Source: Haemophilus parainfluenzae
GTDB taxonomy: Bacteria; Pseudomonadota; Gammaproteobacteria; Enterobacterales; Pasteurellaceae
Direction: 5' to 3'
Length of the DNA stretch: 64,000 nucleotides
Assembly (NCBI RefSeq): GCF_014931375.1
Contig: NZ_CP063117.1
Span: forward strand, 496,001 to 560,000
Shown here: piece after piece, positions 57,086 to 62,339 of the stretch
Position numbering within the stretch: position 1 is the stretch's first letter
Layout: each line of letters opens with the position of its first letter
Notes under the pieces: generated by a model
Told to the model about the DNA's origin: nothing
What the model saw: only the letters and a program-made list of their open reading frames with translations
Databases searched by the model: none
Made by a program: the position numbers and the translations under genes

Positions 57086-58090
57086 ATGGCTTTTAATCTT
57101 AAAAATAGACACCTATTGAGTCTTGTTCATCATTCAGAATACGAAATTAATTATTTGTTAGATTTATCGCGTGATTTGAAACGAGCGAAATATGCGGGAA
57201 CTGAGCAACCTAAACTGCAAGGTAAAAATATCGCATTAATTTTTGAAAAAACCTCAACTCGTACTCGTTGTGCTTTTGAAGTCGCTGCTTATGATCAAGG
57301 TGCTAGAGTGACTTACATTGATCCAAATTCATCTCAGATTGGACATAAAGAAAGCATGAAGGATACGGCTCGAGTTCTTGGGAGGATGTATGATGCGATT
57401 GAATATCGGGGCTTTAAACAAAGTACTGTGCAAGAGCTTGCAGATTATGCTGGTGTCCCAGTGTTTAATGGTTTAACGGATGAGTTTCATCCTACACAAA
57501 TGCTCGCGGATGTTCTCACGATGATTGAACATTGTGATAAGCCACTTCATCAAATAAGTTATGTGTATATTGGTGATGCGCGTAATAACATGGGAAATTC
57601 TCTTTTACTAATTGGGTCTAAACTTGGGATGGATGTGCGTATTTGCGGCCCTAAAGCCTTATTGCCAGAAGCTGGTTTTGTTGAAATGTGTGAAGGTTTT
57701 GCTAAAGAAAGTGGTGCACAGATTACTGTCACTGAAGATATCGACACAGCCGTAAGAGATGTTGATTTTGTGCATACCGATGTTTGGGTTTCAATGGGTG
57801 AGCCATTAGAAGCTTGGGGAGAACGTATTAAATTATTGCTACCTTATCAAGTAACACCTGAGTTAATGAAACGCACAGGTAATCCTAAAGTGAAATTCAT
57901 GCACTGCTTACCCGCATTTCATAACAGTGAAACAAAAGTGGGTCGTCAAATTGCAGAAAAATACCCTGAATTAGCAAATGGCATTGAAGTGACTGAAGAG
58001 GTATTTGAGTCACCCATGAATATTGCGTTTGAGCAAGCTGAAAACCGGATGCATACAATTAAAGCGGTAATGGTTTCAAGTTTAGCTTAG
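57086..58090 (+). CDS. Ornithine carbamoyltransferase
   Basis: 334 aa from ATG 57086 ([32 protein letters not shown] in front); an earlier ATG at 57059 has no site. Carbamoyl phosphate motif STRTR in [20 protein letters not shown], ornithine loop SMGEP, and active-site HCLPA with a [11 protein letters not shown] segment. It could be anabolic (argF) or catabolic (arcB, the H. influenzae name); no arcA, arcC or arginine biosynthesis gene is beside it. The next operon uses ornithine too (speF). Confidence 0.95.
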
Positions 58091-58200
58091 TATTGAAAAT
58101 TAGATAAAATGTGTATCGTTTTTTTAATTCTAAATTTTGAATGAATTCTTAAGTTGTTTGTTGTGATTTTTTATTATTTATGTGAAATTTTATGTTATTT

Positions 58201-58262
58201 TTTGATTATGATCACATTTTTCAAAAAATATTATTGACATAATATTTACACAAGCAGAGAAT
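58201..58262 (+). promoter_or_regulatory. CRP-like site and promoter of the speFL-speF operon
   Basis: TTTGA-TTATGA-TCACA at 58201-58216 matches 9 of 10 CRP positions. TTGACA (58234-58239) and GAGAAT (58257-58262) are 17 bp apart. The predicted start near 58269 places the site at about -60. Confidence 0.6.
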
Positions 58263-58306
58263 GTACCCAACAAAGGTTAGTTTATATAGAAAGAGGGACT
58301 TTTTCT

Positions 58307-58501
58307 ATGCTACTTCGTACATATATACACAGATACGTCCATACGAAAGTATTGAGACTTTTACGGTTTAATCCGATAAAAGGTCGTTCTTTGATGGCGC
58401 ACATCCGTCGTACACGCCATATTATGATGCCGTCGCATCGCTCTTGCTTCTCATACTCACTATTTGCTTCTCAAAACAAACCATCCAACACGGCTCTCTA
58501 A
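58307..58501 (+). CDS. speFL: SpeFL-type ornithine-sensing leader peptide
   Basis: Reading frame of 64 codons upstream of speF, ending in TAA at 58499-58501. It holds MAHIRRTRHIMMPSHRSCFS, which matches E. coli SpeFL (MPHIRRTTHIM..AHRNSF), including the HIRRxxH ornithine-sensing motif and the spaced HR..F. Known mechanism: in E. coli free ornithine is held by the nascent chain, the ribosome stalls on SpeFL, Rho access is blocked and speF is expressed. Two starts are possible: ATG 58307 (AGAGGGAC upstream, 64 aa) or ATG 58394 (AAAGG 10 nt upstream, 35 aa, nearly the E. coli 34-aa length). The C-terminus (SQNKPSNTAL) is longer than in E. coli, which ends FNAR. Confidence 0.9.
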   Translation: MLLRTYIHRYVHTKVLRLLRFNPIKGRSLMAHIRRTRHIMMPSHRSCFSYSLFASQNKPSNTAL

Positions 58502-58535
58502 GCAGAGTTGTTCTCTCTGTTTAGAGAGTCTCCAC
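58491..58535 (+). promoter_or_regulatory. Alternative hairpins at the end of the speF leader
   Basis: Three runs can pair in different ways: CTCTCT (58494-58499, overlapping the leader stop codon), CAGAG (58503-58507), CTCTCTG (58513-58519) and AGAGAG (58523-58528). The CTCTCT GTTT AGAGAG hairpin and the CAGAG/CTCTG hairpin exclude each other. No T-run follows, so this is not an intrinsic terminator. The remaining 58536-58754 stretch is AT-rich without genes. Confidence 0.5.
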
Positions 58536-58754: not shown

Positions 58755-60917
58755 ATGCCAAACTTAAAAATTGCATATAGTCCAAAAGTTGAACAATATT
58801 TCTCTACAAATAGAGAATTAGTTGAAATTACCAAAACAGACTTTACTGATGTTGCCGCTATTGTGTTGACAGCAGGAGATGTAGGTGAATACCTTGAACG
58901 TATTCAAGCAACAAATTTTGGTATCCCAGTATTTGTTGTTCAAACTGAAGAAGAACAAGTTGATCCGAAATTCTATGATGCTATTTATCATATTCAAGAT
59001 TTAAATGGTTATGACATTAAGCTTTATAGCCGTCAAATCGAAACTGCAGCAAGACTTTATGAAGAAAAAATGTTACCTCCATTCTTCAAAATGTTAAGTG
59101 AATATGTAGAAATGGGTAATATTGCTTTTGACTGTCCGGGACACCAAGGTGGTCAATACTATCGTAAACACCCAGCAGGTCGTTTCCTTTATGACTTCTA
59201 CGGTGAAAATATTTTCCGTTCAGATATTTGTAATGCTGACGTGAAATTAGGTGACTTGTTAATTCACGAAGGTGCAGCTTGTGATGCACAAAAATATGCG
59301 GCTCAAGTATTCAATGCAGATAAAACTTACTTCGTATTAAATGGTACATCTTCTTCAAACAAAGTTGCGTTAAACGCAGTACTTGCTCCGGGCGATTTAG
59401 TGTTATTTGACCGTAATAACCATAAATCAAACCACCATGGTGCATTAATTCAAGCGGGTGCAACCCCAATTTACTTAGAAACTGCACGTAACCCATTTGG
59501 TTTCATTGGTGGTATCGACAGTCACTGCTTCGAAGAAGATTATTTGAAATCATTAATTAAAGAAGTTGCACCTGAAAAATTAAATCAAAAACGTCCATTC
59601 CGTTTAGCGGTTATTCAATTAGGTACTTATGACGGTACAATTTATAACGCTCGTCAAGTGGTAGATAAAATTGGTCATCTTTGTGACTACATCTTATTCG
59701 ACTCTGCATGGGTAGGTTATGAACAATTCATTCCAATGATGAAAGACTGTTCTCCATTATTGCTTGAATTAAATGAAAATGATCCAGGTATTTTAGTGAC
59801 TCAATCTGTTCATAAACAACAAGCAGGTTTCTCACAAACTTCACAAATTCACAAAAAAGATAAACACATTAAAGGTCAAGATCGTTATGTAAACCACAAA
59901 CGTTTCAATAATGCCTTTATGTTACATGCGTCAACCAGTCCGTTCTATCCATTATTTGCGGCATTAGATGTGAATGCGAAAATTCAAGGTAGTGAAGCAG
60001 GTCGTCGTTTATGGCATGAATGTGTGAAAGTAGGTATCGAAGCACGTAAATTAGTATTAAATCACTGTGAATTAATTCGTCCATTTATTCCAACCACAAT
60101 TAAAGGTAAAAAATGGCAAGATTATGACACAGAAGAGATCGCAACTAATCTCGAATTCTTCAAATTCCACCCAACAGATACATGGCATAAATTTGAAGGC
60201 TATGCTGATGAACAATACTTCGTTGACCCATGTAAATTCTTGCTTACCACTCCAGGTATCAGCTTAGAAAATGGTGAATATGAAGACTTTGGTATTCCAG
60301 CAACCATTCTTGCAAACTACTTACGTGAAAACGGTATTATTCCGGAAAAATGTGACTTGAACTCTATCTTATTCTTGCTCACTCCGGCAGAAACTCTCAC
60401 CAAAATGCAAACATTGGTAGCTCAAATTGCCTTGTTCGAAAAACACATTAAACAAAACTCTTTATTAAAAGATGTATTGCCAACCGTGTACAAAAACAAC
60501 GAAGACCGCTACAAAGGCTACACAATCCGTCAATTATGCCAAGAAATGCATGATCTTTATGTCAGCCGCAATGTAAAACAACTTCAAAAAGACCTATTCC
60601 GTAAAGCAACATTACCGGAATATGCATTAAATCCACACGATGCGAATATTGAATTCGTTCGTAACAAAGTTGAACTTGTTGCATTAACTGACATTGTTGG
60701 TCGCGTAGCTGCGGAAGGTGCATTACCTTATCCTCCAGGTGTGTTATGTGTGGTTCCAGGGGAAAGATGGAGTCCGACTGCACAAAAATACTTCCTCGCA
60801 TTAGAAGAAGGTATCAACACATTACCTGGTTTCGCACCTGAAATCCAAGGGGTTTACTTACAAAAAGACCCTGATGGACGTACTCGTGCATATGGCTATG
60901 TTTTAACTGACTATTAA
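58755..60917 (+). CDS. speF: Ornithine decarboxylase, inducible
   Basis: 720 aa fold-type I PLP enzyme making putrescine from ornithine. The N-terminal wing domain (~110 aa) comes first, then FDCPGHQGGQYYRKHPAGRF, the PLP lysine in SVHKQQAGFSQTSQ (K354), and the C-terminal domain ending VYLQKDPDGRTRAYGYVLT. Length fits SpeF (about 730). Strong site AAAGGAGTTTATT. Followed by potE. It predicts an ODC-positive biotype. Confidence 0.97.
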   Translation: MPNLKIAYSPKVEQYFSTNRELVEITKTDFTDVAAIVLTAGDVGEYLERIQATNFGIPVFVVQTEEEQVDPKFYDAIYHIQDLNGYDIKLYSRQIETAARLYEEKMLPPFFKMLSEYVEMGNIAFDCPGHQGGQYYRKHPAGRFLYDFYGENIFRSDICNADVKLGDLLIHEGAACDAQKYAAQVFNADKTYFVLNGTSSSNKVALNAVLAPGDLVLFDRNNHKSNHHGALIQAGATPIYLETARNPFGFIGGIDSHCFEEDYLKSLIKEVAPEKLNQKRPFRLAVIQLGTYDGTIYNARQVVDKIGHLCDYILFDSAWVGYEQFIPMMKDCSPLLLELNENDPGILVTQSVHKQQAGFSQTSQIHKKDKHIKGQDRYVNHKRFNNAFMLHASTSPFYPLFAALDVNAKIQGSEAGRRLWHECVKVGIEARKLVLNHCELIRPFIPTTIKGKKWQDYDTEEIATNLEFFKFHPTDTWHKFEGYADEQYFVDPCKFLLTTPGISLENGEYEDFGIPATILANYLRENGIIPEKCDLNSILFLLTPAETLTKMQTLVAQIALFEKHIKQNSLLKDVLPTVYKNNEDRYKGYTIRQLCQEMHDLYVSRNVKQLQKDLFRKATLPEYALNPHDANIEFVRNKVELVALTDIVGRVAAEGALPYPPGVLCVVPGERWSPTAQKYFLALEEGINTLPGFAPEIQGVYLQKDPDGRTRAYGYVLTDY

Positions 60918-61022: not shown

Positions 61023-62339
61023 ATGAGTGCTAAAAGTAATAAAATTGGTGTGGTTCAACTCACCATTCTGACCATGGTTAATATGATGGGTTCAGGTATC
61101 ATTATGTTACCGACCAAATTAGCTGAAATTGGGACTATTTCTATCGTTTCTTGGCTTGTAACCGCAGTTGGTTCAACAGCCTTAGCTTATGCATTCGCAC
61201 AATGCGGTATGTTTAGTAGAAAATCCGGTGGTATGGGTGGCTATGCTGAATACTCTTTCGGTAAAGCCGGTAACTTCATGGCAAACTATACTTATGGTGT
61301 GTCGTTAGTTATTGCGAATACTGCGATTGCGATTTCTGCTGTAGGTTATGGTTCAGAGTTCCTCGGTGCAACCCTTTCTCCACTTTCTATCGCATTATGG
61401 ACAATCTTCACTCTTTGGCTTGCGACTATTCTTAACTTCGGTGGCGCAAGAATTACGGGTAACATCAGTTCATTCACCATTTGGGGTGTAATTATTCCTG
61501 TGGTGGGTATTTCAATCATCGGTTGGAAATGGTTTGATGGTTCAATGTATGTAAATTCTTGGAACCCACACAACGTGCCTACTTTTGAAGCGATCGGTGT
61601 ATCTATTTCAATGACATTATGGGCATTCTTAGGGTTAGAGTCTGCTTGTGCGAACTCTGATGCGGTTGAAAATCCAGAGAAAAACGTACCAATCGCGGTA
61701 CTTGGTGGTACTTTAGGTGCAGCGGTAATTTATATCGTTTCTACTAACGTTATCGCAGGTATTGTTCCTAACCTTGAACTTGCTAATTCAACAGCACCGT
61801 TCGGTTTAGCCTTTGCTCATATGTTTGATGAAACAATCGGTAAAGTCATCATGGGCTTAATGGTGATGTCTTGTTTCGGTTCATTATTAGGTTGGCAGTT
61901 CACTATTGCTCAAGTATTCAAATCTTCAGCGGAAGAAGGTTATTTCCCAGCATTCTTCAAAAAAGTTACTAGCAAAGATGCACCAATCGTTGGTATGGTA
62001 ACTATCACTGCGTTACAAACATTACTATCATTAATGACAATCAGCCCATCATTAAATAAACAATTCAATGTGCTGGTGGATCTAGCGGTAGTAACAAACG
62101 TTATTCCATACTTGCTCTCAATGGCTGCACTTGCTGTATTGTTGAAAACTGAAAATGTTCCTCAACAAAAATACAAAAAAACTGTTCTTGTTGCCTTTAT
62201 TGGTTCAGTCTATAGTATCTATGCGCTTTATGCTGCGGGTGAACAAGCGATGTTATACGGTTCAATTGTGACCTTTATCGGTTGGACATTGTATGGTTTT
62301 GTTTCTTACAAATTTGACCTTAAAAAATCTCAAGCTTAA
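61023..62339 (+). CDS. potE: Putrescine-ornithine antiporter
   Basis: 438 aa, 12 membrane helices, APC family. The start MSAKSNKIGVVQLTILTMVN then MMGSGIIMLPTKLAEIG carries the GSG substrate helix; GLESACANSDAVENPEKNVP is typical of basic amino acid/polyamine antiporters. Exchanges external ornithine for the putrescine produced by SpeF, raising internal pH. AAGGAGTATAAATT before ATG. Confidence 0.95.
   Translation: MSAKSNKIGVVQLTILTMVNMMGSGIIMLPTKLAEIGTISIVSWLVTAVGSTALAYAFAQCGMFSRKSGGMGGYAEYSFGKAGNFMANYTYGVSLVIANTAIAISAVGYGSEFLGATLSPLSIALWTIFTLWLATILNFGGARITGNISSFTIWGVIIPVVGISIIGWKWFDGSMYVNSWNPHNVPTFEAIGVSISMTLWAFLGLESACANSDAVENPEKNVPIAVLGGTLGAAVIYIVSTNVIAGIVPNLELANSTAPFGLAFAHMFDETIGKVIMGLMVMSCFGSLLGWQFTIAQVFKSSAEEGYFPAFFKKVTSKDAPIVGMVTITALQTLLSLMTISPSLNKQFNVLVDLAVVTNVIPYLLSMAALAVLLKTENVPQQKYKKTVLVAFIGSVYSIYALYAAGEQAMLYGSIVTFIGWTLYGFVSYKFDLKKSQA

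Follow-up and report, generated by a model that had tools for sequence, protein, structure and literature searches.

The speF-potE operon of Haemophilus parainfluenzae is preceded, in the 64,000-nucleotide stretch of DNA analysed here (the window), by a short open reading frame of 64 codons plus a TAA stop codon (58307..58501, on the plus strand, as are all features described below). It encodes the peptide MLLRTYIHRYVHTKVLRLLRFNPIKGRSLMAHIRRTRHIMMPSHRSCFSYSLFASQNKPSNTAL, whose residues 32-38 (58400..58420) form the motif HIRRTRH, found in the sequence and aligned with the SpeFL chain of Escherichia coli in PDB entries 6TBV and 6TC3. In E. coli SpeFL, the HIRRxxH motif takes part in ornithine binding. 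The leader ends at 58501 and speF, the gene for inducible ornithine decarboxylase (58755..60917), lies directly downstream; in a search for SpeF relatives its product is 97-99% identical to those of 11 close genomes (loci L001-L011). It is followed by an open reading frame (61023..62339) that, from the gene order and from its resemblance, we take to be potE, which codes for the putrescine-ornithine antiporter. Upstream of the leader lies what is presumably, given its sequence, an ornithine carbamoyltransferase-like gene of the argF/arcB type (57086..58090; listed as an open reading frame from TTG 57059, with ATG 57086 read in the sequence).

An earlier note on this DNA had described a SpeFL-like leader carrying HIRRxxH, with two candidate start codons and an odd C-terminus, and motif, starts and C-terminal letters are all as it gave them. 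The family assignment is borne out by the SpeFL profile PF10940 (formerly DUF2618), which matches the 64-residue form with 99.8 bits (E 7.1e-29) and the 35-residue form that would begin at an internal methionine codon with 86.3 bits (cut-off 25), all 40 profile positions being covered by leader residues 25-64. The E. coli peptide scores 23.8 bits, slightly below the cut-off, and a search of genomes with this profile places E. coli above it. When PDB sequences were searched with phmmer, the SpeFL chain present in 6TBV and 6TC3 was matched (E 0.0018), leader residues 29-54 being aligned with residues 7-32 of that chain. The closest named leaders are from H. parainfluenzae and Haemophilus sp. (97-98%), and the best relative with a name in the protein database is the NCBI entry "leader peptide SpeFL [Haemophilus influenzae]" (P0003; 190 member sequences and 523 contigs in its cluster), which also has 64 residues, is 95% identical and differs at three residues (L3F, V15A, H44Y), none of them in the tail. 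In the leader of H. influenzae 10810 (P0005), Thr replaces the internal Met. Rfam gave no relevant family, the sole overlap being Yfr10 with E 0.76, far under the gathering score, and NCBIfam gave no family for the three proteins queried. To judge from its sequence, the open reading frame is the known SpeFL leader upstream of speF-potE, whose family and basic role are already catalogued. It shares with SpeFL of E. coli and orf34 of Salmonella the HIRRxxH motif, an aromatic C-terminal part, the position before speF-potE and a C-rich 3' half, and differs from them in a 29-residue N-terminal extension, in 8 residues past the E. coli stop, in reading F-S-Y-S-L-F for F-D-F-H-F-F and in its plain CGT arginine codons. 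Taken on its own, the window thus yields a modest result: a known leader, with its start resolved and with a tail that is family-wide.

The H. influenzae counterpart of this leader is HI0592 of strain Rd, which has been annotated from the ATG equivalent to 58307, detected as RNA on Northern blots and found at a lower RNA level on loss of ArcA (PMC1974803), and which a 2009 paper termed an annotation artefact (PMC2627913). The primer given for the HI0592 probe, ATGCTATTTCGTACATATATAC (PMC1974803), equals the start of the Haemophilus leaders L008-L010, and by this primer sequence HI0592 is a SpeFL leader.

Candidate signals in DNA and RNA surround the leader. A sigma-70-like promoter candidate, TTGACA-17-GAGAAT (58234..58262), is weak, with 4 sites in the scan vs 4.4 expected in shuffles, and is kept because TTGACAT recurs upstream of Haemophilus leaders. 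Upstream of this candidate stands TTTGA-N6-TCACA (58195-58220), which we take to resemble a CRP site. The speF operon of H. influenzae has been reported to depend on cya (PMC2627913). A 16-bp hairpin of 39 nt (58492..58530; dG -24.7 kcal/mol), present also in the long fold (z -5.2), has the stop codon of the leader within its 5' arm, and a similar hairpin in the same place in Rodentibacter overlaps the stop codon there too. In an alignment of 11 sequences no pair had changed on both sides, so that conservation of the hairpin rests on its position and its invariant outer stem. The leader's 3' part contains a C-rich, G-poor stretch (58441..58500; C minus G of 17 in 60 nt), a C excess reached by only 0.08% of the plus-strand 60-mers in the window and a candidate Rho loading (rut) site. 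Two terminator-like sites were found in the region vs 0.4 expected; an intrinsic terminator was rejected, and a Rho-dependent reading preferred, because no T run follows the strong hairpin. In Salmonella, a speF transcription fusion that gives 5263 units falls to 61 and 72 units when the leader carries premature stops, and the Rho inhibitor bicyclomycin restores these fusions in part, to 3216 and 3635 units (PMC6386406).

SpeF relatives were found in 46 of 140 family genomes, and 45 loci (L001-L045, examined as 30 and 15) were compared. The HIRR core is present upstream of speF in 37 of them. It is absent from eight: L012 and L022, with short upstream DNA on their contigs; L040-L044, which hold distant SpeF copies (61-67% identical) and in which neither of two motifs revealed an HIRR-type leader; and L045 (G063), in which speF is broken into pieces with many stops and no HIRR leader was found. 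In one Haemophilus locus (L011, G080) the leader stops prematurely after SYRSCFS, and the speF frame downstream is intact. Of the 37 core-bearing loci, 30 have an upstream ATG that shares the frame of the core and six have one that does not, and the contig of the remaining locus (L017) begins inside a repeat. Haemophilus leaders have the extension and the tail of the window leader in common, and the remaining Pasteurellaceae leaders that were compared show these two parts in different versions.

The earlier note had called the start ambiguous. The two candidates are real: ATG 58307, which gives the 64-residue form and follows a Shine-Dalgarno-like GAGGG (58293..58297), and the internal ATG (58394..58396), which gives the 35-residue form, follows AAAGG by about 10 nt and encodes Met30, aligned with Met8 of the E. 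coli chain. The ambiguity, however, is not kept. In all 30 repeat-free Pasteurellaceae loci, a set that is not independent, L001-L011 all being of Haemophilus type, the upstream ATG and the core share one frame, and GAGG or AAGG stands 9-10 nt 5' of this ATG in L001-L011. Purifying selection acts on the N-terminal extension, as judged from the 10 distinct leaders to which the 17 Haemophilus loci (window included) reduce: pN/pS is 0.09 over codons 2-64 and, on small site numbers, 0.16 for the extension (codons 2-29, 5 haplotypes), 0.06 for the core and 0.15 for the tail, vs 0.74 and 2.5 for the extension read in its two wrong frames. On the strength of the in-frame ATG, of the ratio of 0.16 and of the annotation of HI0592 from the equivalent ATG, the start is judged to be ATG 58307, and the internal ATG to be part of the peptide. 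That a shorter leader of 35 residues is the functional one, with the upstream reading frame separate from it and the repeats described below altering only that frame, seems clearly unlikely to us. It would account for the recurrence of an ATG at MAHIRR with AAAGG or the like about 10 nt before it, and for the species with intact repeat tracts, in which this ATG is the only in-frame start and the wrong-frame reading frames stop 22-29 nt short of it, a gap that re-initiation could bridge. It leaves aside, however, the constraint on the Haemophilus extension and the constant frame of the upstream ATG in repeat-free loci. Moreover, a Met opposite Met30 is kept in leaders of Yersinia, Shewanella, Vibrio and enterics that begin further upstream, so that the internal Met need not be a start and the peptide is reason enough for its conservation. 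With 34 residues in the PDB, SpeFL of E. coli itself begins 7 residues before that Met.

The 64-residue reading preferred here brings attention to the C-terminus. The last conserved stretch is FSYSLFAS (residues 48-55, 58448..58471), opposite FDFHFFNA of E. coli; within the aromatic segment F-x-F-x-F-F, F48 and F53 are kept and Y50 and L52 replace the two other phenylalanines. In a 13-row leader alignment (which includes one joined peptide, its C-terminal part being unaffected), F48 and S55 are invariant, S55 standing opposite E. coli residue 33, and no residue after S55 is. A variable tail follows (58472..58498), with codon 56 opposite E. coli codon 34 and codon 57 opposite the E. coli stop; the stop codon thus comes 8 codons later than in E. 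coli, and a sense codon occupies the E. coli stop position. In a comparison of 47 hand-picked entries, all 31 from Pasteurellaceae extend 6-11 residues beyond the position of E. coli codon 34. E. coli-type leaders reach their stop 27 residues on from the internal Met, and 14 of the 16 entries from outside the family have no tail, Vibrio metoecus and Shewanella carassii having 4 and 5 extra residues, respectively; beyond these 16 entries, longer tails occur in L073, L108 and the Vibrio proteins P0038 and P0041. The C-terminus that had been called unusual is therefore so when set against E. coli but ordinary for Pasteurellaceae, and the alignment of Pasteurellaceae speF upstream regions proposed as a check has come out for an in-frame upstream start and a family-wide tail.

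It had further been proposed, on the ground that E. coli stalls at the stop codon of its leader, that the stall site, the sensing geometry or both should differ here, which is reasonable on these alignments, as the stop comes later and conservation ends at about the end of the E. coli peptide. If ornithine is held at an equal site of the tunnel, the P site would be occupied by codon 56 and the A site by a sense codon. Since a tail beyond the E. coli stop is characteristic of the family, arrest, if conserved, is more likely to fall on a sense codon, around codons 56-57, than on the stop. The leader is accordingly filed with the SpeFL sequence family and not with proven termination-arrest peptides, since its stop does not come right after the residue-34 position. 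Arrest on termination at the leader's own stop would need the sensor to lie 8 residues further from the peptidyl-transferase centre, with a nascent chain packed differently, and we give it a rather low probability. The hairpin that overlaps the stop codon in both Haemophilus and Rodentibacter speaks for it, but a tail of 6-11 residues with no conserved sequence is hard to fit to a fixed geometry, and natural Haemophilus leaders exist (P0002, P0004, P0005 and P0006) in which the core is kept and the tail is frameshifted and longer. How far the hairpin lies from codon 56, or from the stop, differs among genera and does not discriminate between the two sites. In Salmonella, a leader stop changed to Trp, which adds 23 residues, leaves the transcription fusion expressed, with 2577 units without arginine and 1917 units with it, and arginine regulation gone (PMC6386406).

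Arginine, rather than ornithine, might be the main signal, with pausing at the paired arginine codons altering mRNA folding as in a model for Salmonella orf34 (PMC6386406). The pair R34-R35 is indeed conserved in the leader alignment. Its codons here, however, are CGT-CGT vs the rare AGG-CGG of Salmonella, and the leader-speF fusion has been reported to be induced by ornithine (PMC6386406), so that we regard an arginine signal as very improbable.

In two other genera of the family, the DNA between the upstream ATG and the core contains perfect tetranucleotide tracts: ACAT in Rodentibacter (39 nt in L013, 71 in L016, 91 in L020 and 75 in L021) and AAAC in Avibacterium (79 nt in L023 and 35 nt in L034). 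L017 is a Rodentibacter repeat locus cut by the contig end. Six tract loci show their start, and in every one of them the ATG and the core stand in different frames (phase 1 or 2), phase 0 not being seen; in the repeat-free Rodentibacter loci (L014, L015, L018 and L019) the ATG is in frame in 4/4. Exact ACAT x7 occurs in 6/140 genomes, four of which, all Rodentibacter, have a single run, at speFL, the runs of G039 and G113 lying away from speFL. Exact AAAC x7 is a common family repeat (36/140 genomes), which in the two Avibacterium genomes with SpeF (G026 and G027) forms a single run, at speFL; Avibacterium G029, with no SpeF match at the cut-off, has its run at another site, and no AAAC run was seen in the speF loci of five Rodentibacter genomes (G118, G119, G123, G124 and G125) that have such runs. 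A protein cluster of 19 member sequences from unclassified Pasteurella (P0008) has the rare SHFAL tail in common with L013, and its extension implies, as far as DNA can be deduced from a peptide, a tract one 4-nt unit shorter than that of L013 and also out of frame. An in-frame tract form was absent from the matches listed (120 of 223, plus 9), the letters of P0001-P0044 being read. Six random phases would all be out of frame with a chance of (2/3)^6 = 0.09, and with six of six so placed the tract species may use the internal ATG or may simply have lost the leader. The collections used comprise one genome per species, and no switching of a tract within a strain was observed in them.

The extension of the window leader resembles such a tract in decay. 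At 58316..58343, 22 of 28 bases match a TACA register, a unit taken from Rodentibacter for this test; the register score is 16 vs 8 for the best shuffle, and none of 300 dinucleotide shuffles reaches it. A unit-free measure, self-match at period 4 over the first 48 bases, stands at 0.43 vs 0.27 expected and gives a weaker, modest signal, reached by 38/2000 shuffles. No intact repeat over threshold lies within the window. These bases look like a decayed tetranucleotide tract, which would be a new observation, and the most surprising feature of the leader, absent from the earlier note; possibly they are instead a proto-repeat, the precursor of the Rodentibacter tract. We propose that the extension began as, or has a common origin with, a tetranucleotide repeat, the Haemophilus frame having become fixed open.

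In four further genera, repeats lie around the speF promoter. L027, L028, L029, L030 and L031 carry repeats of five different kinds 5' of the leader start: T16, GTTAAACAGTAAC x14, CAGCATA x5, A23 and TTTTC x10, respectively. TTTTC x6 is found in 1/140 genomes, that of Pasteurella atlantica, where it stands in the promoter region of speF, and a 13-base unit only before speF of G012 (8 genomes tried). Repeats over fixed thresholds are present in 11 of the 37 core-bearing loci, ten of them inside the leader and promoter regions (22.6 kb) and one starting one base outside, and none occurs in the other 153 kb of these loci, which, being mostly coding, are not a fair control for intergenic DNA. Neutral slippage in AT-rich intergenic DNA might produce such repeats and chance the TACA match of Haemophilus. 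Homopolymers and short repeats arise easily (two of the 11 loci, with T16 and A23, are homopolymers and weak evidence), tract loci are confined to few lineages, no intact repeat lies in the window, and no switching was seen. Against this neutral origin stand the placement of the 11 repeats in or at the edge of leader and promoter regions, the occurrence of ACAT, AAAC, TTTTC and 13-mer runs only at speF in the genomes concerned, and, for the TACA match, the shuffles that fall short of its score. We hold the neutral origin to be possible but doubtful.

Taken together, and with E. coli and Salmonella as guides, the leader would be translated from ATG 58307 as a peptide of 64 residues, the nascent HIRRTRH would hold ornithine in the ribosome exit tunnel, and the ribosome would slow near the end of the leader, probably at a sense codon near codons 56-57, and cover the C-rich stretch and the hairpin. 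Rho would thereby be kept from ending the transcript, and speF-potE would be made. The extension would stem from a tetranucleotide repeat, whose tract length in Rodentibacter and Avibacterium sets the frame between start and sensor; in Haemophilus the tract would have decayed and the frame been locked open. This whole explanation, in which a 64-residue SpeFL, control by ornithine and Rho, arrest at a sense codon and a repeat-derived extension are joined, appears to us moderately probable. A wider reading is that speF is phase variable in Pasteurellaceae, through slippage of a tract within an arrest peptide, with other members using promoter repeats and Haemophilus having retired the switch. 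Whether the ornithine sensor is translated in the first place would depend on slippage, so that a cell would gamble first and sense second. We see this wider reading as evenly poised, a level set by the lack of in-frame alleles among the tracts seen. One Avibacterium paragallinarum isolate has been reported as ornithine decarboxylase negative (PMC12861159), and ornithine decarboxylase activity as variable in H. parainfluenzae (PMC13076348); both reports are compatible with phase variation and prove nothing.

Related systems are known. In the contingency loci of H. influenzae (the lic, mod and hgp genes), tetranucleotide repeats lie between the start codon and the remaining open reading frame. 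Those loci alter surface or modification proteins; here the effect would fall on a leader that regulates a metabolic operon. Among published systems, the one that comes closest is the pil1 leader of Streptococcus gallolyticus, in which simple repeats alter the length of the leader and, through the ribosome, premature termination (PMC3894217); it differs in its GCAGA repeats and pilus genes, and its abstract describes no metabolite sensor, while in Rodentibacter and Avibacterium the repeat precedes an ornithine-sensor motif and in the window it is decayed. TnaC is alike in that a nascent chain senses a small molecule before an amino-acid catabolic operon (PMC8429421), and differs in sensor, in ligand and in its arrest on termination. 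No title or abstract tying speF to repeats was found in a literature search that left most subscription journals outside.

If the explanation is true, random switching by slippage and the sensing of a ligand by a nascent peptide, which are usually studied apart, would be joined in one leader, and the arrest site of SpeFL need not be a stop codon. It would also provide a simple genetic cause for the variable outcome of the ornithine decarboxylase tests that are used in biotyping this family.
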